Positions 20,828-53,086 of a stretch of DNA of 64,000 bases are shown piece by piece. Source of the stretch: Paenibacillus taichungensis (GTDB lineage: Bacteria > Bacillota > Bacilli > Paenibacillales > Paenibacillaceae); NCBI RefSeq assembly GCF_003287275.1, contig NZ_QEVW01000014.1:62001-126000 (forward strand), given 5' to 3'. Within the stretch, counting starts at the first letter, position 1. The number at the start of each line of letters is the position of its first letter. The position numbers were made by a program, and so were the translations under genes. The notes under the pieces were generated by a model, which saw only the letters and a list, made by a program, of their open reading frames with translations, was not told the DNA's origin and ran no database searches.

Positions 20828-20979
20828 ATTTACACGGGTCACTTCGATGGCAGAACAACCTTCCAACCGCTGTTATCCCCAGATTTTTCTGATTCCCTTT
20901 TTTAAAGGGAAAATCCGGTGATAAAGGCGGACGCTTCGCTTCTTCAGGTTTTTTCTGCCCTCTTCGTTATCGTGTAAAT
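20828..20979. repeat. hairpin-forming dispersed repeat, copy 1 (152 bp)
   Basis: This element is bounded by ATTTACACG and its complement CGTGTAAAT and is about four-fifths identical to the 151-bp element at 52936-53086. It can fold along most of its length: GGCAGAA pairs with TTCTGCC, CCGC with GCGG, GATTTT with AAAATC, and CCCTTT with AAAGGG at the tip. It sits between deoD and pdp, so it would be transcribed. Just beyond it, 20996-21067 contains the related GCGAACGCTTCGCTTCT and another small hairpin around CCACTACGCTCGTGG. No gene is present in 20803-21102. Confidence 0.85.
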
Positions 20980-21102
20980 TTTATGTTTTTTTGTAATAGG
21001 GCGAACGCTTCGCTTCTACAGAATCGATTCCGTTTCCTCCACTACGCTCGTGGAACAAAAGTTTCGATTAAAATCAACTGATTTGAATATAAAATGCAAC
21101 AA

Positions 21103-21810
21103 TTACAGCGTGATTGCTGTTTCCAGTGCTACTACCATCATGTCGTTGAACGTTTTTTGGCGCTCTTCGGCGGATGTCTCTTCACCTGTCAGCAAGTGAT
21201 CACTTACCGTCAGGATCGTCAGTGCATTTACGCCAAATTTGGCTGCGAGTGTGTACAGTGCAGTTGTTTCCATCTCAACGCCCAGTACGCCGTGCTGCAT
21301 CAATTTCTCAGTCACGGAACGGTCGTCACGATAGAATGAATCGGAACTGAACACGTTACCGACATGGATTTTCATGCCTTTGGCAGTTGCGCGGTCATAG
21401 GCTTCTTTCAGTAGGGAGAACGTCGCGATCGGGGAAAAATCATATCCACCAAATACGAGCTTGTTCATACTGGAATCGGTACATGAAGCTTGAGCAAGGA
21501 TAACATCACGAACGCGAACGTGTTGTTGCATACCTCCGCAAGTTCCAACACGAATTAGGTTTTTTACACCGTATTCGCTGATCAGTTCGTTGGCATAGAT
21601 GCTGAACGATGGAATACCCATTCCAGAGCCTTGCACCGAGATACGGTGTCCTTGATATGTACCCGTAAATCCGAGCATTCCGCGAACTTCGTTGTAACAA
21701 ACGACATCTTCAAGGTACGTATCTGCAATAAATTTTGCACGCAATGGATCTCCTGGCAAAAGGATTGTTTCTGCAATATCTCCGGGTTTAGCTCCAATAT
21801 GTGTACTCAT
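21103..21810 (-). CDS. deoD: Purine-nucleoside phosphorylase, DeoD type
   Basis: A 235-residue hexameric-type phosphorylase releasing purines and (deoxy)ribose-1-phosphate. Motifs are [10 protein letters not shown] (phosphate site), GTCGGM and the nucleoside-binding [11 protein letters not shown] start at ATG 21810 because GGAGGAG precedes it; 26 further upstream codons are in frame but lack a ribosome site. In the deo cluster it acts on purine nucleosides as Pdp does on pyrimidines. Confidence 0.95.
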
Positions 21811-21956
21811 GATTAAATCTCCTCCAGTTATCCATATGATTGAATGAAGGTCAGGAACCGGAGCAGCCGAAGCTGCCCCCACGGTCATCCTGTCCGACTT
21901 TTATGTTTCAAGAAAACAACAGTTTCCCCATGTTGAGTTAAAGATAAGAATGCTGA

Positions 21957-23135
21957 TTATTTCAAATCTTTCAGGAAGCTTGTTCCATATTCCGGCAGTT
22001 TTACTCCGAAGTTCTCAGCCACTGTTGCTCCAACATCAGCAAATGTACTGCGCAGTTCAAGCTTTTTACCCTCGCTGAAGCGTGGAGAGTACACAAGCAA
22101 TGGCACATACTCACGTGTATGGTCCGTGCCGCGGTAGGTTGGGTCGTTGCCATGGTCGGCTGTGATGAGCAGCAGATCTTCGTCTGTCATTTTGCTGAAG
22201 ATTTCTGGCAGTCGAGCATCATACTCTTCAAGCGCCTGGGCGTACCCTTGTGGATCACGACGGTGACCGAACAGGGCGTCGAAGTCAACCAGGTTCAGGA
22301 AGCTGAGTCCAGTGAATTCTTCATCCATCGTTTCGGAAAGTTTGTCCATGCCATCCATGTTGGAGACGGTACGTACAGACTTGGTTACGCCTTCGCCATC
22401 GTAGATATCTGAGATTTTACCCAAAGCGATAACATCAAATCCACCGTCTTTGAGTTCATTCATCACGGTACGGCCAAAAGGTTTGAGCGCATAATCATGA
22501 CGGTTAGCTGTACGCTTGAAATTACCTACTTCGCCTACAAACGGACGGGCAATAATGCGGCCCAGCATGTAAGGATCGTCGAGAGTAATCTCGCGGCAGA
22601 ACTCACAGATTTCATACAATTCTTTCAGTGGAACAACATCCTCATGAGCTGCAATCTGCAGAACCGAATCTGCGGATGTGTATATAATCAGGGCACCTGT
22701 TTTTACATGTTCTTCGCCCAATTCATCAATGATTTCCGTGCCGCTTGCCGGTTTGTTCCCGATCACTTTACGGCCTGTTTTTTCCTCAATGCGCTGAATC
22801 AACTCATCCGGGAACCCGTCAGCGAACACGCGGAAAGGAGTATCAATGTACAGACCCATTAGTTCCCAGTGGCCTGTCATGGTGTCTTTACCTCTGGATG
22901 CTTCCTGCATCTTGGTGTAAAAAGCTTTTGGTGCATCCGCTACAGGCACACCTTCAATTTCCTTAATATTGGACAGTCCAAGACTGGCCATATGCGGCAT
23001 CTTCAATCCTCCGCGTTCACGTGCAATGTGACCAAATGTGTCGACGTCGAAATCATCGAATTCCGCTGCATCCGGCGCTTCACCAATTCCCACTGAATCC
23101 ATAACAATCAGATGTACTCTTTTGAATGTTGACAT
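21957..23135 (-). CDS. deoB: Phosphopentomutase
   Basis: A 392-residue alkaline-phosphatase-superfamily mutase that converts (deoxy)ribose-1-phosphate to the 5-phosphate. Metal and phosphate sites are visible in [12 protein letters not shown], the phosphothreonine motif [10 protein letters not shown], and the ligand cluster [19 protein letters not shown]. It sits 30 bases downstream of nupC, linking the phosphorylases to DeoC. Confidence 0.96.
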
Positions 23136-23165
23136 AATTTAAGCACTCCTTCCAATAATCCGGCT

Positions 23166-24356
23166 TTACAAGAACAGTCCGGCGATGATCGCAGACAGCA
23201 CGCTGACAAGCGATGCACCGTAAAGCAGTTTCAGACCGAAGCGGGCCACCACATTACCTTGTTTCTCATGAAGTCCTTTCACCGCACCGGCAATGATTCC
23301 GATGGAGGAGAAGTTCGCAAACGATACAAGGAAGACGGATACGATTCCTGTTGTTCTGGCAGACAATGTAGTCTGTTTGGTCAGATCAAGCATGGCAACG
23401 AATTCGTTGGATACCATTTTGGTAGCCATAATACTTCCCGCTTGAATCGCTTCTTTCCAAGGAACACCCATAATGAAGGCAAATGGTGCAAACACATAAC
23501 CAAGCAGTTCCTGGAACGAAATGCCGAGCACTGCACTGAAGATCCCGTTAACCAGTGCGATCAGAGCAACAAAACCGATTAACATTGCAGCTACGACGAT
23601 CGCAACTTTGAAACCATCCAAAATGTACTCGCCCAACATTTCGAAGAAGGATTGTTTCTCCTCTTCCTGTACTTCCAATATATCTTCTTCCGGGGAAACC
23701 TCATAAGGATTCACGATGGAAGCAATGATAAAACCGCCAAACAGGTTCAGCACAAGTGCCGTAACCACATATTTAGGATCAATCATGGACATATAGGCAC
23801 CGACAATGGACATCGATACCGTGGACATCGCTGAGGCACACAAAGTGTACAGTCGATGTTTAGGCAGCAACCCAATTTGTTTTTTCACAGAAATGAACAC
23901 TTCAGATTGCCCCAATACAGCCGAAGCAACCGCGTTATATGATTCCAGTTTGCCCATTCCGTTGACTTTGCTTAATACCAGACCAATATATTTTATAACA
24001 AAAGGCAAGATTCGGATATACTGCAATATCCCAATGAGCGCTGAGATAACAACGATCGGCATCAGTACACTGAGGAAGAACGGCGCGCCCCCACTGTCTG
24101 CACCAACGGTAGTCAAGCCACCGAATACAAATGAGATACCGTCATTCGCATAGCCAAGCAAGCTTTCAAATACGGTTGCGAAACCGCCAATCAAAAATGT
24201 ACCCACTTCTGTGTTCAATAATGCGTATCCCAATATTACTTGCAAAACAATCATGATGATTAGTGGACGATATCTGATCTTCTTCTTACCGTTGCTGACC
24301 AGATAAGCTAGTCCAAAGACAACAAGTATACCAAGAAGGGCAATTAGGAATTTCAT
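23166..24356 (-). CDS. nupC: Concentrative nucleoside transporter NupC
   Basis: A 396-residue CNT-family permease with about ten membrane segments and the family stretches [27 protein letters not shown] and [16 protein letters not shown]. It imports nucleosides with protons or sodium. A cre-like site lies about 95 bases upstream and could give this distal part of the operon its own glucose control. Confidence 0.94.
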
Positions 24357-24446
24357 TCTATCTCTCCTTTGAAGGTAGTTAAGCCGGATGTTTATTCAGC
24401 TCAAAGGTTTCCCATATATGTGATGAATTAACCTTTCAGAAAACGG

Positions 24447-24460
24447 TTGAAGCGCTTACA
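24447..24460. promoter_or_regulatory. cre-like CcpA site ahead of nupC
   Basis: The minus strand reads TGTAAGCGCTTCAA: the left half of the cre consensus is exact, the right half imperfect. It lies in the 276-base gap between deoC and nupC, which otherwise is AT-rich and shows no gene. Confidence 0.45.
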
Positions 24461-24632
24461 ATAAATTCGGTTTTTTATGATTCAATTTTAATTAAAATAT
24501 AGAAAGTTGGATCAGCTTTAAAACTTGTTCTCCACATCCACCGAATAGATATGAAGAACAAGTTAGTACCTTTAAAGCATCCAAGCATTCAATCTAATAA
24601 AATTTATCGAAAACAATTAACTCACGAATAAA

Positions 24633-25307
24633 TTAATAATTAGAAGTCGATTGTTCGCCTTGCATGATCTTCACACCAGAACTAGCGCCAATCCGAGTTG
24701 CTCCTGCAGCGATCATTTTTTGCATATCTTCCAGGCTACGCACGCCGCCGGAAGCTTTAACCCCTACATCAGGACCTACGGTACGACGCATCAAAGCGAT
24801 ATCTTCTGGAGTTGCTCCACCCGTAGAGAATCCTGTAGACGTTTTGACAAAATCAGCTCCAGCTTTTACTGCTGCCTGACATGCACGTACTTTCTCTTCG
24901 TCCGTCAACAGACAAGTTTCAATAATGACTTTCACCAATGCTTTACCCGCTGCTGCTTCAACAACTGCACGGATATCCTGTTCAACAGCGTCATCTTTGC
25001 CATCCTTCAAAGCACTAATGTTGATGACCATATCCACCTCAGTAGCACCTTTAGCGATGGCATCTTTGGTTTCGAATGCTTTGGTCTCGGAAGTGGAAGC
25101 TCCCAGAGGGAAACCGATAACAGTACAAATATCCACGCCAGTACCTTGAAGCTGTTCAGCAGCATAAGCAACCCAGCCCGGGTTAACACATACAGAAGCA
25201 AATTGATATTGTTTCGCTTCTTCGGTCAATTTGGCCATTTCACTTTGTGTTGCATCTGCACGAAGCAAGGTATGATCTATCATTTTGGCTAATTGTGGTG
25301 TAGTCAA
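24633..25307 (-). CDS. deoC: Deoxyribose-phosphate aldolase
   Basis: The 224-residue class I aldolase splits 2-deoxyribose-5-phosphate into acetaldehyde and glyceraldehyde-3-phosphate. Catalytic residues are visible: Asp92 (ATEVDMVIN), Lys126 (LVKVIIET) and the Schiff-base Lys155 ([14 protein letters not shown]). The start is a TTG at 25307 after AGGGGAG. It is the first catabolic gene after deoR, with DeoR-type palindromes upstream. The C-terminal end is slightly extended ([10 protein letters not shown]), a common feature. Confidence 0.95.
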
Positions 25308-25358
25308 TTTAATCTCCCCTTATCTGAACTAGTTATTTTCTATATCCCTACCCTAACA

Positions 25359-25394
25359 TGAACATATGTAAAAATCAATATGAACTTTTGTTCA
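25359..25394. promoter_or_regulatory. DeoR operator region ahead of deoC
   Basis: TGAACTTTTGTTCA (25381-25394) is a palindrome with arms TGAAC and GTTCA. A further half site TGAACATATG lies at 25359-25368. Bacillus DeoR is known to use a palindrome plus a nearby half site. Both are 50-90 bases before deoC, one inside a likely promoter spacer. Confidence 0.6.
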
Positions 25395-25485
25395 CTCTTG
25401 AAATTTAAACACATTCCGTAGAAACTTCACTAAACAAATGACTTCGCTCACCGGGATGCAATCGTATAATATAGCTTCTGCCTAA

Positions 25486-25523
25486 GAAAGCAAAACATCC
25501 GCCCATGTCGCGTGGCAGATGTT
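25486..25523 (-). terminator. terminator after deoR
   Basis: On the minus strand AACATCTGCC pairs with GGCGGATGTT with one mismatch, followed by TTGCTTTC. It begins 14 bases after the deoR stop, so deoR and deoC may be separate transcripts. Confidence 0.6.
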
Positions 25524-25536
25524 GTCATCCCTTGCA

Positions 25537-26481
25537 TTATAATCGAAGCAAAGCTTGGGCTGTGTATTGGTCTGTTACCAAAATGTTGGCGTAGTGACCT
25601 TTGAGCGCAGCATGAATAGCTTCTATTTTACGTTTTCCCCCGGCCACAAGAATCGATTTTTCCTTATTTCGCAGCTCGGCCAGATCAATTCCGACGGTTC
25701 TGTTGTTAATTTCTTCACTGATCAAGCGGCCCTCGGCATCAAAAAAACGTGAACAAATGTCACCTGCACCTGAATGCATCAGCAATTGCTGTTCTTCATC
25801 ATTGAAGTACCCCAGTCTGAACAAAAGTGCATCTTCCTTCACTGTACCTACAGTAAACATGGCAATATTCGCCTGTCGGCCAAGTTCCACAATCCTGCCA
25901 ATATGTCGGTCTGCTTCTACCATTTTTTTGACTTCAATGTTGTCGAAGATCACGGGCAAAGGCAAATATCGGGGAACCGTATGGAAAGCTTCCGCAAATA
26001 AATGAACAATTTCTGCCGCATACGTATTCACATGGGAGTGGCTTACGCCTCCCTTGAGTTGAACCACTTCCACGCCTTTGACCTGCTTGGGACGAAGCTG
26101 ACGGGCTACGGCGTTCATCGTTGTGCCCCAGGTTACCCCAATAATGTCCGCATCCTGAACGGTATCCTGTAAGTAATCTGCTGCTCTTTTGCTAATATGT
26201 TTCAAAATTTCTTCGTCACTCTTCAACGGGGCAAAACATACAAGCGCAGTATCGAGATTGTACTTGGCTTTGAGTTCCCCGGCGATAATGTCGATATCCT
26301 CCAGCGGATCCATGATTTCAATGCGAACATAACCACGATCTTTCGCGTACTGAAGTAATCTTGATACCGTTGGACGTGACACACCCAGCCTGACCGCAAT
26401 GTCTTGCTGGCTGTAATCCGACTGATAATACAATTTCGCTGCTTCAATGCTTAATCGTTGCTTCTCCAGATCCATTCCCAT
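25537..26481 (-). CDS. deoR: Deoxyribonucleoside regulator DeoR (SorC family)
   Basis: A 314-residue SorC-type regulator with an N-terminal helix-turn-helix (about residues 24-46, SQQDIAVRLGVSRPTVSRLL) and a sugar-phosphate isomerase-like sensor domain (IGVTWGTTMNAVARQL, TVGIDLAELRN). Bacillus DeoR belongs to this family and is released by deoxyribose-5-phosphate. Position directly upstream of deoC, and TGAAC-type palindromes at the deoC promoter, support the assignment. Confidence 0.93.
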   Translation of the reverse strand: MGMDLEKQRLSIEAAKLYYQSDYSQQDIAVRLGVSRPTVSRLLQYAKDRGYVRIEIMDPLEDIDIIAGELKAKYNLDTALVCFAPLKSDEEILKHISKRAADYLQDTVQDADIIGVTWGTTMNAVARQLRPKQVKGVEVVQLKGGVSHSHVNTYAAEIVHLFAEAFHTVPRYLPLPVIFDNIEVKKMVEADRHIGRIVELGRQANIAMFTVGTVKEDALLFRLGYFNDEEQQLLMHSGAGDICSRFFDAEGRLISEEINNRTVGIDLAELRNKEKSILVAGGKRKIEAIHAALKGHYANILVTDQYTAQALLRL

Positions 26482-26658
26482 ATGCGCTCATCTCACTCAT
26501 TCCTATTATCGTTCGATTCACCTTACACCAATGTATTATACATGAATGAGTATGAGGTCACTATCCAGGTATAAAACGTTACAAACGATGCATACTACAT
26601 CGGTCGCTTATTAATGTCGGCCCTTTTTGTAAAAAACATCATAGAGAGGAAGAATCGT

Positions 26659-27285
26659 ATGTCTACGTTATTGTATATTACTGCCCATCCTCATGATCAT
26701 GAAACTTCATTCAGCATGGCTGCAGGTAAAGCGTTTGTGGATGCATATCGTGAAAGCCATTCCTCGGATGAGGTTGTTCATCTGGATCTTTATCGCTCAG
26801 ATATTCCTCATATTGATGCAGATGTATTCAGTGGTTGGGGGAAACTTCAATCCGGCAGCGAATTGACTTCTGAAGAAAAGGTTAAGGTTCAACGTTTGAA
26901 TGAATTATCGGATCAATTCGCCTCTGCTGACAAATATGTTTTTGTAACTCCGATGTGGAACTTCTCTTTCCCTCCAATTATGAAAGCTTATATCGACTCC
27001 ATCTGTGTAGCTGGTAAAACGTTCCGTTATACGGAACAAGGCCCGGTTGGATTGCTTTCCAACAAAAAGGCACTGCATATTCAGGCTCGTGGCGGCATTT
27101 ATTCCGAAGGTCCTGCGGCTCAGATGGAATCCGGTCATCGTTACCTGAGCATTATCATGTCTTTCCTGGGTGTGCCTAAGCTTGAAGGCATTTTTGTGGA
27201 AGGACATAACCAATATAAGGAACGCGCAGATGAGATCAAACAGCAAGCTATAGAAGAGGCACGTACACTCGCTAAACAGTTCTAA
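26659..27285 (+). CDS. azoR: FMN-dependent NADH-azoreductase
   Basis: A 208-residue flavodoxin-like quinone/azo reductase. It has the N-terminal phosphate-binding segment ([14 protein letters not shown]), the family motif [16 protein letters not shown] and the loop [10 protein letters not shown]. Known relatives reduce quinones and azo compounds with NADH and help against thiol or quinone stress. I start at ATG 26659, which follows AGAGAGGAAG; a start 15 codons upstream has no ribosome site. It is monocistronic and divergent from deoR. Confidence 0.93.
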
Positions 27286-27317
27286 CCCTTAAATAGAACA
27301 AGTACAACAACAAACAC

Positions 27318-27380
27318 AAAACCCGCATGCCAACCCATGGATATTAATTCCAAGGGAGGCACGCGGGTTTTAATTTTTTT
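27318..27380. terminator. terminator after azoR
   Basis: The arms AAAACCCGCATGCC and GGCACGCGGGTTTT pair with one mismatch around a 25-base loop, followed by a run of T. The A run before it lets it also serve the convergent gene at 27400. Confidence 0.88.
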
Positions 27381-27399
27381 TATAATAACCGATAGAGCT

Positions 27400-27750
27400 T
27401 TATTGATGTCCAGCACTAGCACGGCTCATGGTTTCAAGTTTGCGAGTAATGGCATTGCGATCCACTTTCAGTCCCCAAATAGCTTCAATAATCTGTTCTT
27501 TCTCTTCAGGCCCATCGGCATTTTTGAGTTGCATTAACAGATCATGCATCTGTTCGTTAATACCTTCAAATTGACTCCAAAGATCCTGTCTGACCTCGGT
27601 TGAATCCAGATGATGATTAGCATCCACTTCTTCTTTCAATGCTTGCAGAATAGCTTCTTTCCACTCCTCATCACCTAGCTGTTTCGCTATGTTCAGGAGA
27701 TCCAGATAATCGTCAACAAGAAGTGAGTTCAATTCAGCATGTGTTTTCAT
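27400..27750 (-). CDS. hypothetical helical protein
   Basis: A 116-residue acidic, probably all-helical protein without membrane segment or cysteine. It has repeated Leu/Glu/Gln patterns (LLVDDYLDLLNIAKQLGDEE and GINEQMHDLLMQLKNADG). I do not recognise the family. ATG 27750 follows AAGGGGATG at a long spacing. It stands alone between azoR and the MFS gene, with codon use like its neighbours, so it is likely real. Confidence 0.7.
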   Translation of the reverse strand: MKTHAELNSLLVDDYLDLLNIAKQLGDEEWKEAILQALKEEVDANHHLDSTEVRQDLWSQFEGINEQMHDLLMQLKNADGPEEKEQIIEAIWGLKVDRNAITRKLETMSRASAGHQ

Positions 27751-27912
27751 CGTTTATTGCATCCCCTTTGCAACTATTTACCCAGTATTATACTCGGTAT
27801 TTCGGGATATGCAAGACTTGTCGAAAAAAGTTATTTATTGTACAAGGGACTATTGGATGATTATGGGTCAAAATGAGTGCTTTTAATGAACAAACTTTCG
27901 ATCTATGTTTAG
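27751..27912. other. short intergenic stretch, nothing recognised
   Basis: No gene, strong hairpin or promoter motif was found here. The end of the long operon at 27913 therefore lacks an obvious terminator. Confidence 0.5.
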
Positions 27913-29181
27913 TTAAAAAGTAAGCTTGGTATGTTCTTGTACCCTTTCTATAAGCAACCGACACAAAATAAAGCCGATTATCACATACACACCAATCAAG
28001 CCCACAATGCCAATCCAACCCACATGGCTGTAAAGTAGGCCCCCTCCAGTTCCGCTGACACTTGATCCAACGTAGTAGAAAAACAAATACAAGGCATTGG
28101 CCTGGGATTTATGATGATCTGCCACGAGTCCAACCCAACTGCTTGCGATGGAATGTCCGCCAAAGAAACCAAAGGCAAACAGGGCAAGTCCAATTATTTT
28201 GACCCAAAGCTCTGGGTGAATGGTACAAACTGCACCAGCCAGTATAATACCCAGCGCGATTCCAAGGACATTCGATCTTCCATACCGATCTGCAAGCCTG
28301 CCCATCCAGGTGCTGCTCAATGTACCCATAAGGTACACGACAAAAAGGCTACCAACGACAGATTGGCTAAGATGATAAGGTTCTCCTGTCAATTCAAATC
28401 CGATGTAGTTGAATAACGTCACGAACCCCCCCATCAGAAGAAAGCCCAGTCCGTACAGGCAAAGTAGACGTGGATTTCGACACTGTGACCACAAAAGAGG
28501 AATGATCTTTTTGAGTCCAGGAGTCGCTTTGACAAAATGGCGGGATGGCGGGATGACAAGCCAGAAGATAACAGCCGCACAAAGGCCTAGAATACCGATA
28601 AAACCAATTGCAGCACGCCAACTGATCCAATCTGTGATCACGCCGCTGATAAAACGACCAGCCATACCTCCAATCGAGTTCCCGCTGATATAAAGGCCCA
28701 TCGCATACCCTAGACTGGAAGGCTCAATCTCTTCAGACAGATATGTCATGGCTGTCGCGGGCAGCCCGGCAAGTGCAACTCCCTGGAGAATGCGAAGCAG
28801 AAGCAGTTCAGTAAATCCAGGGCTAAACGCGCTAATCATTGCAATAATAGAAGAAACAACTAAAGCTGCTGTCATAATAAAGCGTCTTCCCAATGAATCG
28901 GATAAGGAACCGATGAACAACATGGTCAGTGCCATGGCAATCGTCGTAACTGAGAGGGTAAGACTGGAATGTGCAGGCGAGATCGCAAATGCCTCGCTAA
29001 TCTCGGGCATCAGGGGCTGGAGGCTGTATAGTAACGCAAAAGTCACAAAACCTCCGGCAAACAGCGCAAGGCTAATGTTACGAAACGTCTTAGTTCCCTG
29101 CTGAATCATGATATTCCAACTTTCTCGGCAGGAAAGCTCCATGATCGGCTGCTGACTGATCGCTTGGCTGAAGCCTTCCAT
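27913..29181 (-). CDS. MFS transporter (YnfM/AraJ-like)
   Basis: The 422-residue protein has twelve membrane segments and the MFS loop motifs GSLSDSLGRRFIM and GRLADRYGRSNVL. It resembles YnfM-type drug/metabolite exporters. The start is uncertain. ATG 29181 lies six bases after the previous stop but has no ribosome site, while ATG 29109 (MIQQGTKTFRN) begins right at the family's usual N-terminus with a weak GGA ahead. It is the last gene of the hydantoinase/ABC operon and may export a product or import another substrate. Confidence 0.85.
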   Translation of the reverse strand: MEGFSQAISQQPIMELSCRESWNIMIQQGTKTFRNISLALFAGGFVTFALLYSLQPLMPEISEAFAISPAHSSLTLSVTTIAMALTMLFIGSLSDSLGRRFIMTAALVVSSIIAMISAFSPGFTELLLLRILQGVALAGLPATAMTYLSEEIEPSSLGYAMGLYISGNSIGGMAGRFISGVITDWISWRAAIGFIGILGLCAAVIFWLVIPPSRHFVKATPGLKKIIPLLWSQCRNPRLLCLYGLGFLLMGGFVTLFNYIGFELTGEPYHLSQSVVGSLFVVYLMGTLSSTWMGRLADRYGRSNVLGIALGIILAGAVCTIHPELWVKIIGLALFAFGFFGGHSIASSWVGLVADHHKSQANALYLFFYYVGSSVSGTGGGLLYSHVGWIGIVGLIGVYVIIGFILCRLLIERVQEHTKLTF

Positions 29182-29187
29182 TAATCG

Positions 29188-38580: not shown

Positions 38581-38596
38581 AAGCTCAACTCCTTTA

Positions 38597-43664: not shown

Positions 43665-43830
43665 ACTAAAACGTCCTCCTTCAATGGTTTCATAGAATAG
43701 GTACGAATTACTTGTGACTTGTCTCTGTGTAGTTTGTTAAGGCAGATTAGGGATTCTGTTCCTTCTGTTCACCGATACCCGAGGTAACACACTACCATTT
43801 CATGCCAATGGTCAATTCTTTTTCTTGTAA

Positions 43831-43844
43831 TGAATGCGTTTACA
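43831..43844. promoter_or_regulatory. cre-like CcpA site ahead of fucI
   Basis: The minus strand reads TGTAAACGCATTCA, matching the cre consensus at 13 of 14 positions, 167 bases before fucI. The rest of 43665-44076 is AT-rich and holds no gene apart from the LacI operator below. Confidence 0.6.
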
Positions 43845-43976
43845 AATATTTATTTTAAAAAAAACGCTCTATTATTATTGGCTCCGTTCTACTGCCCTGT
43901 TATGAAGTATGAAGGAAGCGATGTGAGCAAAAATGAAGAGCGGTTAGACTGAAATAAATCAACTTTTTTTGTGATC

Positions 43977-43994
43977 AGGGTTATCGGTAACCCT
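43977..43994. promoter_or_regulatory. LacI-type operator between fucI and its regulator
   Basis: The arms AGGGTTATC and GGTAACCCT are centred on CG and pair at 8 of 9 positions, typical of LacI-family sites. It lies 83 bases before the LacI-type gene. A looser relative sharing TATCGGT is at 43765-43782, nearer fucI. Confidence 0.6.
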
Positions 43995-44076
43995 AAGATA
44001 GCATGAGCCTATGTTGCTGTCAATCGGCATTATCCTATAGAATGGAAAGACTATGTTGCGGAAAGGTTAGATCCTA

Positions 44077-45087: not shown

Positions 45088-45150
45088 AGAGGAAAATCAT
45101 TCGAAGATCAACCCTGACTTGAGAGAAACTGTTTTGTTGAAGTAAATACA

Positions 45151-45197
45151 CAAAAAGAACGCAGCGGAGAATATCTCTCTGATTGCGTCCTTTTTTA
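45151..45197. terminator. terminator between convergent LacI and epimerase genes
   Basis: The arms AAAAAGAACGCA and TGCGTCCTTTTTT pair with one mismatch, extended by GAGA with TCTC. T and A runs on both sides make it bidirectional. Confidence 0.8.
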
Positions 45198-45223
45198 TGA
45201 AATGTACCTCTTGTATATGGAAT

Positions 45224-46117
45224 CTAGCCCTCGGATTGAAGAGCCAAAGCGACTTCCCGAACCAGACCCGGAAACCAATCCATTAATGCTTCAAACGTAT
45301 ATCCCGCCTGCTCTGCTTTGGATGTATCCATTGTCCAGGATTCCGAAATTCCAAAGGGTGACATGTCTTCTTTGATCGTTTCGGTCAGTACCTGTGATTG
45401 CATGCCAGTTACCGTTTCGATTAGATGCATCATGGCGGAAAGTGTTATCGTCCCTTTGGACGCTGCATTTACAGGTCCTGTAATGGATGAATGTCCGAGC
45501 CAAGCGAGAAATCTCGCGGCTTCGGTGGAATTGATAAATCCAATTTCAGCATTCGGATTGGGCATGCCGATAGGTTTTCCTTTTTGCACATGTTCAATAT
45601 GAAAATGAAGTCTTCGCGTGTAATCATCAATCCCGAGTACAATTGGTATGCGCATCGCCGCCACCGGGAAATCCGCTTCCTGGAAAAACACAGCTTCCGC
45701 TAGACGTTTACCCTCGCCGTAGGAGAAATCTTCGTGGCTTCCGTATTGCACCGGGTAGGTGTACGGATCGAAATCGGCTTCGGTGAATCCCGGTTTGGGA
45801 TCTCCATATACAGAAAGTGTTGATGTCAAAATGTACCTTTCGGTACGTCCCGCAAAAGCTTCGCAAGCCGACTTCGCCGCATCCGGCGAGTAACAGATGT
45901 TGTCATAGACAATATCCCACATGTCGGTCTGTGCAACCTCGGCAAGAGATTTCGGGTCTTCACGATCCATTTTAATCCGGTTGACCTCAGGCCCAAAGTC
46001 TACATCCGTTTTGCCACGAGTTGCGACGGTGATCTGAGACTTTCCTTCCCACAGCAAATGATCAACCAGACGTTTGCCGAAGAACCGTGTCCCACCAAGT
46101 ATAAGTACTTTTTTCAT
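45224..46117 (-). CDS. NAD-dependent epimerase/dehydratase (extended SDR)
   Basis: The 297-residue protein has the nucleotide-binding start ILGGTRFFGKRLVDHL, the stretch TSTLSVYGDP and an active-site-like YGEGKR. It resembles reductases/epimerases acting on nucleotide- or simple sugars. The substrate cannot be fixed. It is co-directional with the methyltransferase and oxidoreductase genes upstream. Confidence 0.82.
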   Translation of the reverse strand: MKKVLILGGTRFFGKRLVDHLLWEGKSQITVATRGKTDVDFGPEVNRIKMDREDPKSLAEVAQTDMWDIVYDNICYSPDAAKSACEAFAGRTERYILTSTLSVYGDPKPGFTEADFDPYTYPVQYGSHEDFSYGEGKRLAEAVFFQEADFPVAAMRIPIVLGIDDYTRRLHFHIEHVQKGKPIGMPNPNAEIGFINSTEAARFLAWLGHSSITGPVNAASKGTITLSAMMHLIETVTGMQSQVLTETIKEDMSPFGISESWTMDTSKAEQAGYTFEALMDWFPGLVREVALALQSEG

Positions 46118-46202
46118 CCGATAAAACCTCCTAACCTGTTATGTTCATGCGTATCATTATTAAAACCTTCATGAATGAAGTGCTGTTGCAATTCAGGTAT
46201 TT

Positions 46203-46919
46203 TTACCGAGATTTCACAATATGGAGCATTGTGTCTGCTCCCCGCTGGAATTCGTATGAAGTTTTCTCTTCAGATGTAATATATCCGCGTTCTTCCAGTA
46301 TAGCCTTTAGTTCATCCATGTGCTCATAACGTCTCCCGGACAAGTCTACCGTAGGAAAAATCCGCAGCTCCCGCTTGGTCACACGCAACAGCTCAAAGAT
46401 TGTCTGTAGATGGAATTCCGCATCCAGGCGATCTGCATACGTAAACAGGAAATGCGCAGACAATGTCAGATCAAACTGTTCATCGGCAAAAGGTAACTCT
46501 GGCAGTACAGCAGCCTCATAAGAGTCAGGGAAACATCTCATATCCGCTACACAGTCGGTGATTGCACGTCTACGTTCTTCTTTCAAGCCATGAATCGAAC
46601 CGAAATCATCCCATCTATATTTGTCTTGTACTTGTTCCATTTGTTTCATCGTATGTTCAATATCCTGAAGTCCCTTCACTTCCAGTTGTCCGATCTCATG
46701 TTCATAAGCAATATCCGCTGCCATGGGATCTGCACCCCACTCCCGCGATTGACTACTGAATGAACAAGCCCCGCCCGGACAATCGAGAATAGACTTACCC
46801 TTAATATCTTCCACGGTCAGGTTGAACATCTTCATATATTCCTCGAAGGTTCGCCCGATAAAAATAATCTGTGCCAGCTCCAGCCCGGCTACTCTGCTCT
46901 TCTGCTCATCTCTGCTCAT
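46203..46919 (-). CDS. Class I SAM-dependent methyltransferase-like protein
   Basis: The 238-residue protein has a motif I variant (ILDCPGGACSF), an acidic strand end (AADIAYE) and the motif PFADEQFDLTLSAHFLF expected of class I SAM methyltransferases. The substrate is unknown. The start lies in a repeated GATGAGCAGA stretch. It begins 23 bases after the oxidoreductase stop and may form an operon with it. Confidence 0.78.
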   Translation of the reverse strand: MSRDEQKSRVAGLELAQIIFIGRTFEEYMKMFNLTVEDIKGKSILDCPGGACSFSSQSREWGADPMAADIAYEHEIGQLEVKGLQDIEHTMKQMEQVQDKYRWDDFGSIHGLKEERRRAITDCVADMRCFPDSYEAAVLPELPFADEQFDLTLSAHFLFTYADRLDAEFHLQTIFELLRVTKRELRIFPTVDLSGRRYEHMDELKAILEERGYITSEEKTSYEFQRGADTMLHIVKSR

Positions 46920-46942
46920 CTCGTCTCAGCTCACTTTCAGAA

Positions 46943-47923
46943 TTAATCGTTAGGAAAAACAAGACCGATCTGCTGTCGGATCTGATCCATCACCTGCATG
47001 GTAATATAGGAACGTTCATACGTGTTCATGTCCGATTCCTTTTTGCCCTGCTGAATCAGATTGACAAACTCCTCCACCTCATAATACATTGACGGATGAA
47101 TTTGTTCGGCAGTGAGTTTTTCCACCGTACCATCATTGTAGCGTATCTCTGCATGTTCGGGTGAACCAATTTTGTCAATGAGGATGCTGCCGCTTTCGCC
47201 CATAATTTCGCTTGGAACATGAGAATTGGAGATTTTGGAGTACGACACTACCGCTTCCATTTGATCATAATTCAGAATGACACTGCCTTGTCCATCTACT
47301 CCCGATTCCAGCATCATCGCCTGAGAGTGAACTTGTTTAGGCTCGCCGAACAGCGTAATTAAAGGATAGAGACAATACACCCCAAGATCCATTAACGCTC
47401 CGTTAGCAAGATCGGGTTTGAACGCATTCAGGACGATTCCTTCCTTATACTTGTCGTACCGTGAAGAGTACTGGCAGTAACTCGCAACATATTTACGTAC
47501 CGGGCCAATTTTATGTAGGTGAGATTGTACCATTTTGAACGAGGGAACAAGGGTCGATTTCATGGCCTCCATAAGCAAAACTCCATGTTCTTTCGCTGTA
47601 TCAATCATACGACGGACCTCTGCCCCATTGGCAGCCAAAGGCTTCTCGCACAGTACATGTTTGCCGTTTCTCAGAAACAACTCTGCCTGCTCGGCATGAA
47701 AGGTATTCGGTGTAGCAATGTACACGGCATCAAGACCATCACTCGTCGCCATCTCTTCCAGGTTGGTGAATCGAAGTGCAGCCTGATATTGATCTGCAAA
47801 CGCATTAGCTTTATCTTCAGTTCTTGAGTATACGGCGGTCAATTCGAATCCTTCGACTTGTGCAGCAGCCTCAAGAAGTCTCTCTGTAATCCAATTGGTA
47901 CCTACCACTCCAAAACGAACCAT
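46943..47923 (-). CDS. Gfo/Idh/MocA-family oxidoreductase
   Basis: A 326-residue NAD(P)-binding oxidoreductase with the Rossmann start (FGVVGTNWITERLL) and the lysine of CEKPL in the active site. It has a C-terminal alpha/beta domain. The family acts on sugars, inositols or trans-dihydrodiols. The substrate here is unknown. Confidence 0.88.
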   Translation of the reverse strand: MVRFGVVGTNWITERLLEAAAQVEGFELTAVYSRTEDKANAFADQYQAALRFTNLEEMATSDGLDAVYIATPNTFHAEQAELFLRNGKHVLCEKPLAANGAEVRRMIDTAKEHGVLLMEAMKSTLVPSFKMVQSHLHKIGPVRKYVASYCQYSSRYDKYKEGIVLNAFKPDLANGALMDLGVYCLYPLITLFGEPKQVHSQAMMLESGVDGQGSVILNYDQMEAVVSYSKISNSHVPSEIMGESGSILIDKIGSPEHAEIRYNDGTVEKLTAEQIHPSMYYEVEEFVNLIQQGKKESDMNTYERSYITMQVMDQIRQQIGLVFPND

Positions 47924-48081
47924 TCAATCTACCTCTTTCGTAAATAAATTTCACAATTATACAGCTTGCCATCCTGTACATTGTAGCCTATATTTCAATC
48001 AGATTGAAGGGATGTCCATTTCCAACATATTGATATCTTGCTTTTTTGTTTGAAACTTCGTGGATCTCGATAAATCAGGGG

Positions 48082-48087
48082 TATAAT
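48082..48087 (+). promoter_or_regulatory. -10 box of the adaA-radical SAM genes
   Basis: A perfect TATAAT lies about 20 bases before the preferred TTG start, with no convincing -35, as expected for a promoter needing an activator such as methylated Ada. Its last two bases are the AT of the nearby ATG 48086, which would then lie upstream of the transcript start. Confidence 0.4.
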
Positions 48088-48106
48088 GAGACTTGAGGTG
48101 ATTCTT

Positions 48107-48694
48107 TTGGACAGTCACAACCCCTATCACAAAGATTCAGACCCTATAGATGACAAAAAGTGGAATGCCATTATCCACAACGACAGCAGCTTTGATGGAA
48201 AATTCTATTACGGTGTCAAAACAACAGGCATCTTTTGCCGACCTTCCTGCAAGTCGAAAACACCCAAATATGAGAATGTCTCTATATTTAACAACCCTGA
48301 AGAAGCATTGGCTCTACATTTCCGTCCATGCAAACGGTGCAAACCAACAGGCGAGCGTGTCCCCGATCAGGAATGGATTTCTGTTGTAACAGACTATATT
48401 GAACATCATTTTGCCGAGCCCCTTACACTTGATATTCTTGCAAATGTGAGTCACGGTAGCCCATATCATCTGCATCGGGTGTTCAAACGGATTATTGGTC
48501 TAACTCCGGTGGAGTATATTCAGGAAAAAAGAGTAAATGAAGCCCGGAAATTGCTAGAAAGCACTGAACTAACCGTCACCGATATCGCTCGACTGGTCGG
48601 CATAGCCAATCCGGCGTATTTTATTACTGTATTTCGAAAACATACAGGAAGCACACCTGCCAATTATCGTGAACAAAGGCGTGATCAATTATGA
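48107..48694 (+). CDS. adaA: AdaA-like methylphosphotriester sensor and regulator
   Basis: The protein of about 195 residues joins an Ada zinc domain to an AraC-type DNA-binding domain. The zinc cysteines are Cys44 and Cys48 (GIFCRPSC) and Cys75 and Cys78 (RPCKRC). In Ada proteins the first accepts a methyl group from DNA phosphotriesters and turns the protein into an activator. The C-terminal domain runs from about 95 to 195 (LTLDILANVSHGSPYHLHRV). I choose TTG 48107, six bases after GAGGTG. No Ogt/MGMT domain follows; instead the gene overlaps a radical SAM gene by four bases. Confidence 0.88.
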   Translation: MDSHNPYHKDSDPIDDKKWNAIIHNDSSFDGKFYYGVKTTGIFCRPSCKSKTPKYENVSIFNNPEEALALHFRPCKRCKPTGERVPDQEWISVVTDYIEHHFAEPLTLDILANVSHGSPYHLHRVFKRIIGLTPVEYIQEKRVNEARKLLESTELTVTDIARLVGIANPAYFITVFRKHTGSTPANYREQRRDQL

Positions 48695-49509
48695 AGACCA
48701 GCTTGGTATACAAAGTACCCAAAACATTGCTGAACAAAGGAACAGGATTTCTGAATGGATATACGCATACGCTGAATCCCTACACAGGCTGCGCTTTTGG
48801 CTGTTCCTACTGTTATGTAAGGCAAATGCCTGTATCTTTATTTCGCAAAGAGCCATGGGGCAGCTGGGTTGATGTGAAACAGGAAGCCGCCAATGTGTTT
48901 GCCAAGGAGCTTAAGCGTGCGAAATCGAAAGGTAAAGTCACTCTTTTTATGTCATCCAGTACAGACCCGTATCAGCCCGTAGAATATAAGGAGCAAATCA
49001 CGCGTTCTTTACTTGAAGTCATGGCCCAGGATCCACCCGATTTTATATTGGTGCAGACCCGAAGTCCATTGGTGACCCGAGATATCGATCTGCTGCAAAA
49101 GTTGGGTGACCGGGTCCGGGTCAGCATGACCGTAGAAACGGATCTGGATGATATCCGCAAGCAGTTCAGTCCCGCAGCACCTCCAATCGCAGGCAGATTG
49201 CGTGCCCTTGAACAACTGCGAGATGCCGGTATACCCACACAGGCTACTATTGCGCCAGTATTACCCAGCAGCGAAAACTTTGCAGCCATCCTGAGGCCGC
49301 TTGTACAGCGTATATGCGTAGATGATTACTTCATGGGAGATGGAAGTGAAGGCAAACGAACCCGGAGACTTGGCATGCAGCCGCTTTACGAACAAGTGGA
49401 CAGGGAAGATTGGTATAGTCCTGAGGCATACAAAATGGTAGTCGAGCGAATGAAGGCACATTTTGAGGAAGATGAAATCTGGATTAGCCAGGCCGGATTC
49501 GAACCCTAA
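48691..49509 (+). CDS. SPL-family radical SAM protein
   Basis: The 272-residue protein has a radical SAM cluster Cys34-x3-Cys38-x2-Cys41 (CAFGCSYCY) followed by SSSTDPYQPVE. It belongs to the group related to spore photoproduct lyase that lacks the full N-terminal SplB region. Functions in this group are mostly unknown. Coupling to an Ada-type damage sensor (ATGA overlap) suggests repair of a DNA or nucleotide lesion, but this is inference. A strong terminator follows. Confidence 0.86.
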   Translation: MKTSLVYKVPKTLLNKGTGFLNGYTHTLNPYTGCAFGCSYCYVRQMPVSLFRKEPWGSWVDVKQEAANVFAKELKRAKSKGKVTLFMSSSTDPYQPVEYKEQITRSLLEVMAQDPPDFILVQTRSPLVTRDIDLLQKLGDRVRVSMTVETDLDDIRKQFSPAAPPIAGRLRALEQLRDAGIPTQATIAPVLPSSENFAAILRPLVQRICVDDYFMGDGSEGKRTRRLGMQPLYEQVDREDWYSPEAYKMVVERMKAHFEEDEIWISQAGFEP

Positions 49510-49530
49510 TCATGCCTTGATATAAAATAA

Positions 49531-49575
49531 ATATAGCCCTGCTTCCCTCGCATCGGGAGTCAGGGCTATTCTTCT
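49531..49575. terminator. terminator after the adaA-radical SAM genes
   Basis: The arms ATAGCCCTG and CAGGGCTAT, with inner TCCC and GGGA, make a strong stem, followed by TCTTCT. It also faces the convergent gene at 49587. Confidence 0.85.
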
Positions 49576-49586
49576 AACTTAATCGA

Positions 49587-50693
49587 TTATTGATCGAGTG
49601 TGTACAATGGAAGATCTGCCGGCAGTGCAGCTGGTCGCTGACATGTGCTATCCATTTTATAAAAACTCTGTTCATCCGAAGAATCATGGAACGCCCACAT
49701 TGCTTCAAGCACATGGTAGGCCAGCTCTCCACTTGCTCGGTGAGCGCGTCCACTGCCCACGGCATAAGCCATATCTGCAACACCGATGCCACGTGTATTC
49801 TCCTGATACCCTGGCAGAAGTGGTACCTCAGTCCATTCCTCATCACCTAGCAAACGGTACCGAACTGGACCACCGAATGTGTTTGGATCAGGAACCTGTA
49901 GGGTTCCATGAGTGCCGTATACTTCAATCGGTGGCAATACACTTCCGCCAAATACGTCAAAACTCGTAATCAGCGTGCCGATAGCTCCCTGCTCAAATTG
50001 CAATAATCCCGCTACATGCGTCGGAATTTCAACAGGAATGCTCTGACCCCGCTTTTTCTCACTCGTGATCGTCCGCTGTTCCATCGCTTTGCCCGTCATG
50101 CCAGCAATTGACTTGATTGGTCCCAGCAATTGTACGAGCGCAGTCAGATAATAAGGCCCCATATCAAACATAGGCCCGCCACCGGCTGCATAGTAGAACT
50201 CTGGATCTGGATGCCAATGCTCATGCCCACGGCTCATCATAAATGCGGTGGCTGCCACAGGTTTGCCAATGACACCATCCTCTACCACTTTGAGTGCCGT
50301 CTGGATACCTGAACCGAAGAACGTCTCTGGTGCACAGCCTACCAGCAGACCTTTACGCTTAGCCGTTTCCAGGACCGCCTGACCCTCTTCACGTGTAACA
50401 GCGAGTGGTTTTTCCACGTAGACATGTTTACCTGCTTCGAGCGATCGCAAACACACATCCGCATGAACGGCAGGAATCGTCAAATTGATAATTAGGTCGA
50501 TGTCAGGGTCTGCCAAAATTTCATCAACCGTATATACGTTAGGAACATGATAAGCAGCTGCCTGCTCTTCAGCCCTTTTTCGGTCAAGATCCGCAACCGC
50601 AACAAGATCGAGAACCTCAAATCGGTGACAGTTTTCCATATAAATACCGCTGATTTTACCGCAGCCAATAATGCCTACTTTCATTGTTTTCAT
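49587..50693 (-). CDS. Gfo/Idh/MocA-family oxidoreductase
   Basis: The 368-residue protein has a Rossmann start (VGIIGCGKISGIYMENC), VEKPLAVT with the active-site Lys, and a C-terminal domain. ATG 50693 follows AAGGGAG at seven bases. It is the last of three co-directional genes with a ThuA-like gene between two oxidoreductases, a set common in Paenibacillus for oxidised or derivatised sugars. Weak cre-like bases occur around 50722. Confidence 0.9.
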   Translation of the reverse strand: MKTMKVGIIGCGKISGIYMENCHRFEVLDLVAVADLDRKRAEEQAAAYHVPNVYTVDEILADPDIDLIINLTIPAVHADVCLRSLEAGKHVYVEKPLAVTREEGQAVLETAKRKGLLVGCAPETFFGSGIQTALKVVEDGVIGKPVAATAFMMSRGHEHWHPDPEFYYAAGGGPMFDMGPYYLTALVQLLGPIKSIAGMTGKAMEQRTITSEKKRGQSIPVEIPTHVAGLLQFEQGAIGTLITSFDVFGGSVLPPIEVYGTHGTLQVPDPNTFGGPVRYRLLGDEEWTEVPLLPGYQENTRGIGVADMAYAVGSGRAHRASGELAYHVLEAMWAFHDSSDEQSFYKMDSTCQRPAALPADLPLYTLDQ

Positions 50694-50819
50694 GCCTGGA
50701 CTCCCTTCGTGTTCCCATTTGATATAGCGCTTCCATAAAAAACTCTAGACCGCTGTCATGTGGGTCAATGTATTTATTTCAACAAATATGAATTAGATTA
50801 ACTTAGATTAAATTTATTA

Positions 50820-51548
50820 TTAATGACTTTGGTTATCAGCCATTCCTGTGTAAACTTCAGACACTTCGTTCGAACGGCTCTGCGCAAGCGTCTTGCCCGC
50901 CGCAGTCCATTTGAAACCGCTACGCATCATTTCAGTAACTTGTTTCATCTCCACGATATCTGCATGGTGTCCGAGAGAATTGTAGAACACACGGCCTGCA
51001 CCCCAGCGTTTGGTCCAAACAACCGGCATATCCACAGGGCCATTCGCTGCATGTGGACCGTTAACAATAGGAAAACGTGTTGTTGCCAGTACTTCCACAG
51101 CAGGATCCACGTGCAGGTAGTACTGTTCACTTTTCACCTGGAAATCTTCAATATGGTCCAATAGCGGACTGGATCCACGCTTCATATTTACCGTGTACTC
51201 CACACCGTCGTTCCCTGGATGCGCAACCCACTGTCCACCCGTCATGAACTGCCAGTCGACGTTGTTGCGGAACGCATCACACATCCCGCCATGAAGACCC
51301 GCAAGTCCCACGCCGCTCTGAACAGCTGCAGATACGTTATTGACCAGTTCCTGTTCAATCTGTCCCATTGTCCACAGCGGAACGATTAGATCCAGACCCA
51401 GCAGTTTCTCTGCATCCGCATAGGCTTCCAGTGTATCTGAAACTTCAACCTCAAATTGTTCTTCTTTCAAAATGCGTTCAAAAATCGCTGCTACCTGTTC
51501 TGGTTCATGTCCATCCCAGCCGCCCCATACGATTAGTGCTTTGCTCAT
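50820..51548 (-). CDS. ThuA-like domain protein
   Basis: The 242-residue protein of the ThuA family has a type 1 glutamine-amidotransferase-like fold. It shows LIVWGGWDGHEP, GLAGLHGGMCDAF and WTKRWGAGRVFYNSLGHH. Such proteins accompany sugar dehydrogenases in trehalose or glucoside oxidation, but the reaction is not established for this branch. I use ATG 51548, one codon inside an in-frame GTG. Confidence 0.85.
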   Translation of the reverse strand: MSKALIVWGGWDGHEPEQVAAIFERILKEEQFEVEVSDTLEAYADAEKLLGLDLIVPLWTMGQIEQELVNNVSAAVQSGVGLAGLHGGMCDAFRNNVDWQFMTGGQWVAHPGNDGVEYTVNMKRGSSPLLDHIEDFQVKSEQYYLHVDPAVEVLATTRFPIVNGPHAANGPVDMPVVWTKRWGAGRVFYNSLGHHADIVEMKQVTEMMRSGFKWTAAGKTLAQSRSNEVSEVYTGMADNQSH

Positions 51549-51714
51549 CACCCATCACTCGCTTTCCGGTAGTAAAGTTATTGTCATTCTCTATTAAATC
51601 TTGTGCAAACTTAAGACCTCTCCGAGGTCAACCTCCTAGCTGCAATCCAGCTTATTTATGTCAAACGAGTGCCAACACGATGTCCACTTCACAATTCAGT
51701 GAGCGGCTCAATTC

Positions 51715-52893
51715 TTACATTTCTTCTAGCGGCACCCATCGGCGCTCTGTAACGGAACGTTCAACGGCTTCCAATACTGCTTGACAGGCAACACCATCAT
51801 GGAAATTTGGCTCAGGCTGCCTTCCTTCCGAGATCGCAGTCACCAGTTCCAGCATTTCATGTGTGAACGTATGCTCGAATCCAATCGTATGTCCCGCAGG
51901 CCACCACGCCTCAGCATATTTATGTGCCGGATCGGTCGCCAGAACACGGCGGAAGCCCTGCACATCTTCATCGTCCTTTGTAAAATACACTTCCAGTTCA
52001 TTCATCCGTTCAAAATCAAACCGGACGCTGCCCAGACTGCCGTTGATCTCAAAAGAGTTCGTACTACGATGGCCTGCTGCAAAGCGTGTAGCTTCGAAGC
52101 TTCCCAGTGCACCATTTGCAAATCGTGCCAGGAACAAAGTGGCGTCATCTACAGTCACTTCGCCCTTCGGAGCATCTGCATTCGAACTACCTTTGGCGCT
52201 AAGTCCGGTCATTTCCGATGCCAGCGGCCGCTCTTTAATGAACGTTTCACTCATCCCAATTACTTCCTTGAATTCACCTACCAGAAAACGTGCCAGATCA
52301 ATCAGGTGTGCGCCAAGATCGCCATGCGAACCGGAACCTGCAACTTCTTTTTGCAGACGCCATACCAATGGGAACGAAGGGTCCATGATCCAATCTTGAA
52401 GGAAAAACGCTCGGAAATGATAGATTTTGCCCAGACGTCCGCTTTGCACCAACTCTTTGGCCAGCTGCACTGCTGGAGAGAAACGGTAGTTGAATCCGAC
52501 CATGTGTGCAACCCCTGCTTCTTCAGCTGCCTGAAGCATTTCACGCGAATCAGCTAACGACAGAGCCAGCGGTTTTTCACAGAACAGATGTTTACCCTGG
52601 CGGGCGGCTTCCAGTGCGATCTCCTTATGGGCATCACTTGGAGCGTTGATATCGATTAGATCGATGTCATCACGGCGCACCAATTCGCGCCAGTCTGTTA
52701 CACTTTCAGACCAGCCGAACTGACTGGCAGCCTCCTCAACTCCCTGCACGTTCCGTCCGCAGATTACAGACATCTCTGGCTGCAGCGGGGCAGACGGGAA
52801 AAACATCGGCAGACTGCGATATGCGTTGCTGTGGGCTTTTCCCATAAATTTGTATCCAACCATTCCGACACGAAGACGATTTGACATGGTCAT
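51715..52893 (-). CDS. Gfo/Idh/MocA-family oxidoreductase
   Basis: The 392-residue protein has a Rossmann start (VGMVGYKFMGKAHSNAY), FCEKPLA and the C-terminal GHTIGFEHTF seen in members near ThuA genes. ATG 52893 follows GGAGG. It leads the ThuA/oxidoreductase set downstream of the LacI gene, with a hairpin repeat (52936-53086) between. Confidence 0.9.
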   Translation of the reverse strand: MTMSNRLRVGMVGYKFMGKAHSNAYRSLPMFFPSAPLQPEMSVICGRNVQGVEEAASQFGWSESVTDWRELVRRDDIDLIDINAPSDAHKEIALEAARQGKHLFCEKPLALSLADSREMLQAAEEAGVAHMVGFNYRFSPAVQLAKELVQSGRLGKIYHFRAFFLQDWIMDPSFPLVWRLQKEVAGSGSHGDLGAHLIDLARFLVGEFKEVIGMSETFIKERPLASEMTGLSAKGSSNADAPKGEVTVDDATLFLARFANGALGSFEATRFAAGHRSTNSFEINGSLGSVRFDFERMNELEVYFTKDDEDVQGFRRVLATDPAHKYAEAWWPAGHTIGFEHTFTHEMLELVTAISEGRQPEPNFHDGVACQAVLEAVERSVTERRWVPLEEM

Positions 52894-52935
52894 TTCCTCC
52901 TTTGGGATAATGCTATACAGGTTGATCTAAATAGT

Positions 52936-53086
52936 ATTTACACTTGCCACTCCGATGACAGAACAACCTTCTGATCGCTGTTACCCCCAGATTTTTTTGA
53001 TATCCTTTTAGAAGGGAAAATCTGAGGATAAAGGCGAACGCTTCGCTTCTTCAGGTTTTTTCTGTCCTCTCCGTTCACGTGTAAAT
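52936..53086. repeat. hairpin-forming dispersed repeat, copy 2 (151 bp)
   Basis: The element begins with ATTTACAC and ends with GTGTAAAT and is a near copy of 20828-20979. Two stem pairs differ in a compensating way: G-C at 20850/20958 is A-T at 52958/53065, and C-G at 20867/20930 is T-A at 52975/53037. It lies between two co-directional minus-strand genes. Confidence 0.85.

Follow-up and report, generated by a model that had tools for sequence, protein, structure and literature searches.

The bcr repeats of the Bacillus cereus group (bcr1, bcr2-bcr18) are about 150 bp long, lie between genes and resemble miniature inverted-repeat transposable elements (MITEs). They are often found in untranslated regions (UTRs) or operon gaps, and bcr3 correlates with mRNA decay (PMC3446304, PMC2267715). 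The pneumococcal BOX elements are modular, structured and transcribed repeats with optional internal modules (PMC3049150). ERIC, Correia (NEMIS) and RUP elements fold back through their inverted ends and, once transcribed, affect the mRNA that contains them: RNase III cleaves Correia, and ERIC uncovers a site for RNase E (PMC3049150, PMC10969869). REP/RAYT systems provide many intergenic hairpins per genome (PMC3733652). Here we analyze a hairpin-forming repeat found in a 64,000-nt stretch of the Paenibacillus taichungensis genome (contig NZ_QEVW01000014.1, positions 62,001 to 126,000; hereafter the window).

By analogy, this element appears to work like bcr1 or BOX but to represent a separate family, set apart from both by their descriptions. 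It shares with the bcr repeats its size, intergenic location, MITE-like make-up and placement in UTRs and operon gaps. Compared by description, it differs from them in its order-wide occurrence and in a conserved three-way junction surrounded by rewritten helices, and a phylum-wide draw of genomes searched with our covariance model R2 matched nothing outside the taxonomic family of the window. Like BOX, it carries an optional module, here a hairpin of ~39 nt at one place, the modular style again being compared from description. Unlike BOX, which is reported to be enriched in convergent gaps, it is not enriched there and shows a sense bias. Foldback structure and inverted ends are shared with ERIC, Correia and RUP, but the sequence differs and no related transposase was found for the window's element. 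REPs also provide many intergenic hairpins per genome, but are only 20-40 bp long. The covariation-supported conserved core resembles that of Rfam families, but none of these reaches its gathering threshold: Rfam 15 gave no such match in the window, and two locus sets (10 and 11 loci) yielded only sub-threshold and unrelated matches. A literature search that had most subscription journals outside its reach found no publication on this repeat.

We conclude that the element is probably a mobile interspersed repeat whose RNA form is under selection where it lies in leaders or between cistrons. It is present in many copies per genome and has inserted into empty sites, its fold is kept by double changes, and it prefers the gene-sense orientation. 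Because paired mutations keep the fold on the strand that is read with the genes, the element is probably a piece of mobile DNA serving, or being handled, as structured RNA in the gaps between genes.

The original prediction described a ~150-bp hairpin found twice in the window, at about four-fifths identity and with compensatory stem changes. Both copies are genuine. Their type A cores, with the ends ATTTACAC/GTGTAAAT, lie on the minus strand at 20828..20979 (copy 1, 152 nt) and 52936..53086 (copy 2, 151 nt), and BLAST finds copy 1 and copy 2 (place C6:114936) to be 85% identical. The compensatory pairs are exact: 20850/20958 is G/C in copy 1 and the corresponding 52958/53065 is A/T in copy 2, while 20867/20930 is C/G and 52975/53037 is T/A. 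As predicted, the copies sit between co-directional genes, all on the minus strand; that they are transcribed, as also proposed, is likely from position and strand. The transcribed strand would thus be the minus strand, and we describe the element in this sense. The minus-strand fold is more stable than that of dinucleotide shuffles for both copies (z -6.2 and -4.5; 0/200 shuffles as good, each). "Found twice" was an undercount, as at least 102 distinct places in this genome match our covariance model at E<=1e-6. The predicted span marks the core, but many copies have outer inverted arms, TATATAAGTTSAACTAAA...TTTAGTTSAACTTATATA, beyond it. The short words noted beside copy 1, thought to belong to a wider family, are part of the remaining 5' half (in RNA sense) of the same element in a second subfamily, type B.

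We examined the fold in an alignment of 30 copies from the window's own genome (A1), from which 5 ragged copies of 35 and copies with the extra module were excluded. Pairing was found in 97.4% of the cells of its 38 pairs, and 14 pairs were double-changed with pairing kept; none of 500 shuffles reached any of five measures. A second alignment (A3) contains 37 diverse copies; L443 and L067 (core cut failed), the near duplicates L064 and L439 and the tandem neighbors L433, L441, L446 and L448 were dropped. RNAalifold proposed 30 pairs for A3, 25 of them with double changes. A fold with a three-way junction paired 88.9% of the cells, compared to 36.6-54.6% in slid controls. Double changes affected 27/31 pairs (21.4 in shuffles) and 243 cells (74.8 in shuffles, 49-106 in slid controls), and on each of the five measures 0/500 shuffles reached the observed value. 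The outer helix is the least certain part of this fold (81.9% paired). Covariation of the kind expected of a functional structured RNA is thus observed. It was also found in place: among 15 type B copies from 15 species at one orthologous site, 671/689 cells pair and 7 pairs are double-changed, compared to 2.6 in shuffles.

In low-copy congeners and other families of the order, two strands remain nearly unchanged, GAAGCGnAGCGyTCGCCTTTG and CAACAGCGATCGGAA, while the adjoining helices differ in sequence and still pair. The comparative model suggests that the copies specify a structured RNA, a long hairpin with a three-way junction in its middle that is conserved across the order. The modeled junction would consist of an invariant AGRA, a mini-hairpin of 2 bp with a GNA or GNNA cap, a UCGC/GCGA helix and an internal loop that covaries. 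In A3, 37/37 rows form the mini-hairpin, with one double change of the G-C to A-U type and one of the C-G to U-A type. An alternative RNAalifold pairing of its 3' arm with the far strand is broken in 4/37 rows, shows no double change, and was rejected. The internal loop beside the UCGC/GCGA helix changes in concert, with CU/CA accompanying C-G, and AU/CG or AU/GA accompanying U-A. In the window, the 5' and 3' strands of the junction lie on the minus strand at 20922..20945 (RNA GAAGAAGCGAAGCGTCCGCCTTTA) and 20860..20875 (RNA TAACAGCGGTTGGAAG) in copy 1, and at 53029..53052 (RNA GAAGAAGCGAAGCGTTCGCCTTTA) and 52968..52983 (RNA TAACAGCGATCAGAAG) in copy 2; the mini-hairpin is GC-GAA-GC in both.

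Which strand carries the fold was addressed by mismatches that pair in only one of the two strands. A fold kept only as double-stranded DNA predicts equal G·T and A·C departures. Among 3601 cells of 95 extended copies we counted 150 G·U versus 21 A·C; one pair column supplies 59 of the G·U cells, and without it the counts are 91 versus 20. The in-place type B set gave 35 to 4. Single-side transitions in paired columns were C>T.036, G>A.008, A>G.017 and T>C.004, compared to.023,.061,.037 and.032 in unpaired columns. Since unpaired columns show the opposite C>T versus G>A bias, drift in base composition does not explain the G·U excess. Measured against this unpaired-site control, the excess indicates that it is the gene-sense strand whose fold is maintained. 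The preference for G·U would also be expected of a single DNA strand; therefore, this result points to one strand but not by itself to RNA.

The orientation of the copies relative to genes was determined in G022, a complete relative whose contig begins with dnaA. Its 148 copies comprise 81 sense and 15 antisense copies in co-directional gaps (p 4e-12), 24 in convergent, 24 in divergent and 4 in undetermined gaps. Lagging-strand copies taken alone (8 sense, 8 antisense) seemed at first to speak against an effect of the genes, until the full census was done: next to leading-strand genes 73 copies are leading and 9 lagging, next to lagging-strand genes 6 are leading and 8 lagging. With the replication strand allowed for, the gene association persists (odds ratio 10.8, p 3e-4). 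Therefore, orientation follows the genes, and replication strand is an insufficient explanation. The same bias is found in the window's own genome (30 sense vs. 4 antisense), in low-copy congeners (12 vs. 2, of 17) and in other genera (14 vs. 4, of 26), the latter two counts excluding the tandem neighbors named above. At L002 and L024, the copy is antisense in the window's genome, and the copy in the corresponding intergenic gap of G022 (1591603 and 6922234, respectively) is sense.

Sense copies also lie closer to the next start codon, at a median distance of 48 nt compared to 113 nt for antisense copies (p 1e-4; 3 sense copies more than 600 nt from the next start excluded), while the distance to the previous stop does not differ. 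After subtraction of the outer arm, 48 nt suffice for a ribosome-binding site but for hardly anything more; most sense copies should therefore lie inside the downstream transcript unless the element itself holds a promoter. No sigma-70-like promoter match was found in copy 2. A possible exclusion of antisense copies from short operonic gaps was not significant (Fisher p 0.25).

In 30 aligned loci, the core is often enclosed by the outer inverted arms TATATAAGTTSAACTAAA and its complement, so that a full type A element measures ~190-200 bp and copy 2 runs from about 52914 to 53105. The center of the outer-arm motif GTTSAAC was G/C in 45 and C/G in 14 of the 95 copies versus GG in 2 and CC in 3, with other combinations in 13 and no match in 18/95. 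With ~150 to 235 nt, no coding capacity as judged from the listing of open reading frames (ORFs), and terminal inverted repeats in the form of these arms in many type A copies (copy 1 lacks intact ones), the element has the make-up of a MITE. The optional ~39-nt hairpin, AAAAGCTTTCTGAAAGAAAGCT...TTCGGAAG, occupies one fixed internal place in some copies. Copies with it and copies lacking it at that place occur in type A, in type B and in another genus (L010 vs. L260 [G022 5206011]; L074, L083; L502), and this optional arm therefore looks old.

BLAST with copy 1 gave at least 47 aligned pieces at about 40 places in the window's own genome (40 of 119 candidates scored). Model R1, built from A1, raised this to the 102 places mentioned above, a lower bound because 150 of 2443 first-look candidates were scored. 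The covariance-model search of Paenibacillus genomes proposed with the original prediction recovered further copies in relatives and across the order. R1 matched 27/39 relatives, namely 24/24 of the genus (own genome included) and 3/15 others, and gave at least 148 matches at E<=1e-6 in G022 (150 candidates scored). An exact 23-base core word was found in at least 118 stretches of the genome collection, all in Paenibacillus-titled records among the matches listed. R2, built from A3, matched 157/198 genomes of the order, in 30/43 genera and seven of the labelled families, but only 7/398 genomes in the phylum-wide draw, every one within the window's own family. The absence elsewhere is provisional, because both R2 searches used stricter filters that lose weak matches. 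Thus, neither of the findings named beforehand as speaking against the fold, a lack of further copies or unpaired stem changes, was obtained: copies are many, and their stem changes are compensated.

Some genomes show particular arrangements. The low-copy congener G009 carries tandem arrays with units of ~300-360 bp instead of dispersed copies (C11 near 235684, 235987 and 236290 [L062, L433, L448]; C20 near 291853, 292209 and 292567; C22 near 161609 and 161930). In G022, the region opposite dnaA (~3.18-3.93 Mb) has no R1 match among the matches listed, and 6.1-6.9 Mb is dense; type B copies at the site corresponding to copy 1 lie near 3.89 Mb, inside the stretch without a listed R1 match.

Related genomes were also searched for empty sites, as suggested originally. 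At the copy 2 site, ~200 nt of the window correspond to 12 nt in G001, and the element is likewise missing from 12 more genomes, whose gaps measure 16-43 nt; G041 carries an internally deleted copy, and the gap in G044 holds a related copy that is damaged. Another copy (C6:517917, the L015 site) is present in G041 and absent in 13/14 relatives. Insertion into previously empty sites is thus observed. At the copy 1 site, type B is found in 15 of the 30 genus genomes, as a single unit or as up to three in tandem. The arrangement of the window, type A beside half a type B, occurs in two and a remnant in one, while seven have short gaps without an element and in four the right flank is unaligned. 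Together with the kept fold, these insertions support two of the options originally offered, small non-autonomous elements or a structured RNA, and the interpretation given there is supported overall.

Comparison of the window's own genome with G022 showed that for 26/42 copies one flank or both are also found beside a G022 copy, and for 19 of them both flanks agree in the same orientation; one such pair differs by the 39-nt module. Since flanks are shared but the copies are seldom each other's best match, sites seem to persist while their contents are exchanged. Internally deleted copies (L413 1326-1420; L101) and a ~70-bp palindrome of two arms (L417 582-651) suggest that copies decay by deletion between the outer arms. 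Lone outer arms gave 78 matches at <=3 mismatches versus 37 for the reversed control; the 10 loci scanned in detail yielded the deleted copy in L413, a half copy in L415 and the palindrome in L417. An IS630-type mover was considered and rejected for the present genome: DDE_3 was found in 0/7 candidates of the own genome, and 9/30 genus genomes have one. None of the 10 loci scanned held a gene-bearing element between two outer arms. The probable TA target resembles that of some ERIC, Correia and RUP elements. BLAST of the element against plasmid and phage collections gave no match; an exact 21-base core word occurs in 13 stretches of IMG/VR contigs (L400-L412).

In-place conservation, strand preference, gene-following orientation and the position near start codons favor an RNA role, and the insertion history favors mobile DNA. 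We favor a combination of the two, mobile DNA whose RNA form is probably selected. Several observations weigh against this conclusion. The plus-strand folds of the two window copies are also better than those of dinucleotide shuffles (z -5.0 and -4.0; 0/200 shuffles as good, each), and in the type B set the antisense fold is close behind the sense fold (-36.7 vs. -45.6). RNAalifold left the outer arms unpaired, and since the aligned rows are related copies, the shuffles overstate significance. Co-directional gaps are not enriched overall (96/144 classified copies vs. 117/156 ORF pairs in sampled regions), and transcription of the sense copies is inferred from position and strand. Same-site copies of the own genome and G022 were best or second-best matches in only 6/18 pairs (18 of the 19 two-flank pairs were used), so selection in place is mixed with replacement. 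A TA target duplication is compatible with copy 2, a single site, the flanks at L015 being too diverged, and searches for DDE_3/IS630 and paired arms found no autonomous mover. Finally, 130 Pfam families are represented among the 83 proteins encoded downstream, without functional enrichment, and the most frequent family occurs in 4 of them; genes that share no function make a specific regulatory role unlikely.

The element could instead be purely selfish DNA, its hairpin being recognized as single-stranded DNA by a transposase or a replication-linked process and its antisense copies being rarer because they harm expression. This is possible, though distinctly less probable. It would account for the outer inverted arms, the insertion into empty sites, the random downstream genes and the position of 110/148 G022 copies on the leading strand. 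In addition, G·T is tolerated in single-stranded DNA, too, and the GNA and GNNA loops of the junction's mini-hairpin are those of very stable DNA mini-hairpins. It does not fit an orientation that follows genes after allowing for the replication strand or the crowding of sense copies at the next start codon, and the mover searches produced no candidate. A terminator or attenuator spread between genes, as the original prediction had also considered, is improbable. In its favor, the sense strand of copy 2 contains one weak terminator-like match, GCGAAGCGTTCGC with CTTTATCC after it (shuffles average 0.2), but copy 1 has none, convergent gaps hold about their baseline share of copies (24/148 in G022 vs. 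23/156), and G022 copies lie directly upstream of genes such as those of the enolase, SecA and PurH families. We regard a riboswitch or gene-specific cis-regulator as highly improbable despite the leader position and the conserved core with variable helices, because the genes downstream represent the genome at large, which effectively rules out a switch for particular genes and is compatible with either a passenger or an mRNA element of general use; moreover, presence varies between close species. Chance similarity or an assembly artefact can practically be dismissed, as no point was found for it and matches reach E 5e-46, occur in complete single-contig genomes and extend over many genera.

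For a mobile repeat selected as RNA, the following course can be envisaged. The element would spread as DNA by means of a putative transposase, and older copies may be replaced in place by recombination with other copies. A sense copy would be transcribed in the leader of the downstream gene or between cistrons, where a host factor, either an RNase or an RNA-binding protein, could bind or cut its junction and thereby might set mRNA processing or stability. A bolder version, which we find rather doubtful, is that the junction represents a functional RNA domain that is itself mobile and offers one conserved factor of the order a portable site for binding or processing. This domain would have been scattered into well over a hundred transcripts and be refreshed by in-place exchange, so forming a genome-wide post-transcriptional network, or the element would use its RNA form in its own spread.

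All features of the window described here are on the minus strand; gene calls are the longest non-overlapping ORFs rather than the output of a trained gene finder. Copy 1 lies between a purine-nucleoside phosphorylase-family gene upstream (21103..21888, phosphorylase superfamily PNP_UDP_1) and a pyrimidine-nucleoside phosphorylase gene downstream (19501..20802), and the type B remnant that contains the two short words beside it spans 21000..21078. Copy 2 including its outer arms (52914..53105) has borders set by the empty site in G001 (L102), with the TA repeat probably flanking. It is located between genes for a LacI-family regulator upstream (53114..54208) and a GFO/IDH/MocA oxidoreductase downstream (51715..52893).

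Repeats scattered through bacterial genomes are commonly interpreted as relics that are recent and confined to one lineage, with a hairpin that arises as a side effect of their inverted ends. The present element retains a single core across families of an order, with all surrounding helices rewritten, and does so on the strand used by the genes. The covariance model is ready for annotating a large share of the non-coding DNA in these genomes. Whether such repeats are only passengers or working RNA parts is directly testable, as there are dozens of natural pairs of sites with and without the element, the junction is defined well enough for mutagenesis, and a putative protein partner could be sought with it.

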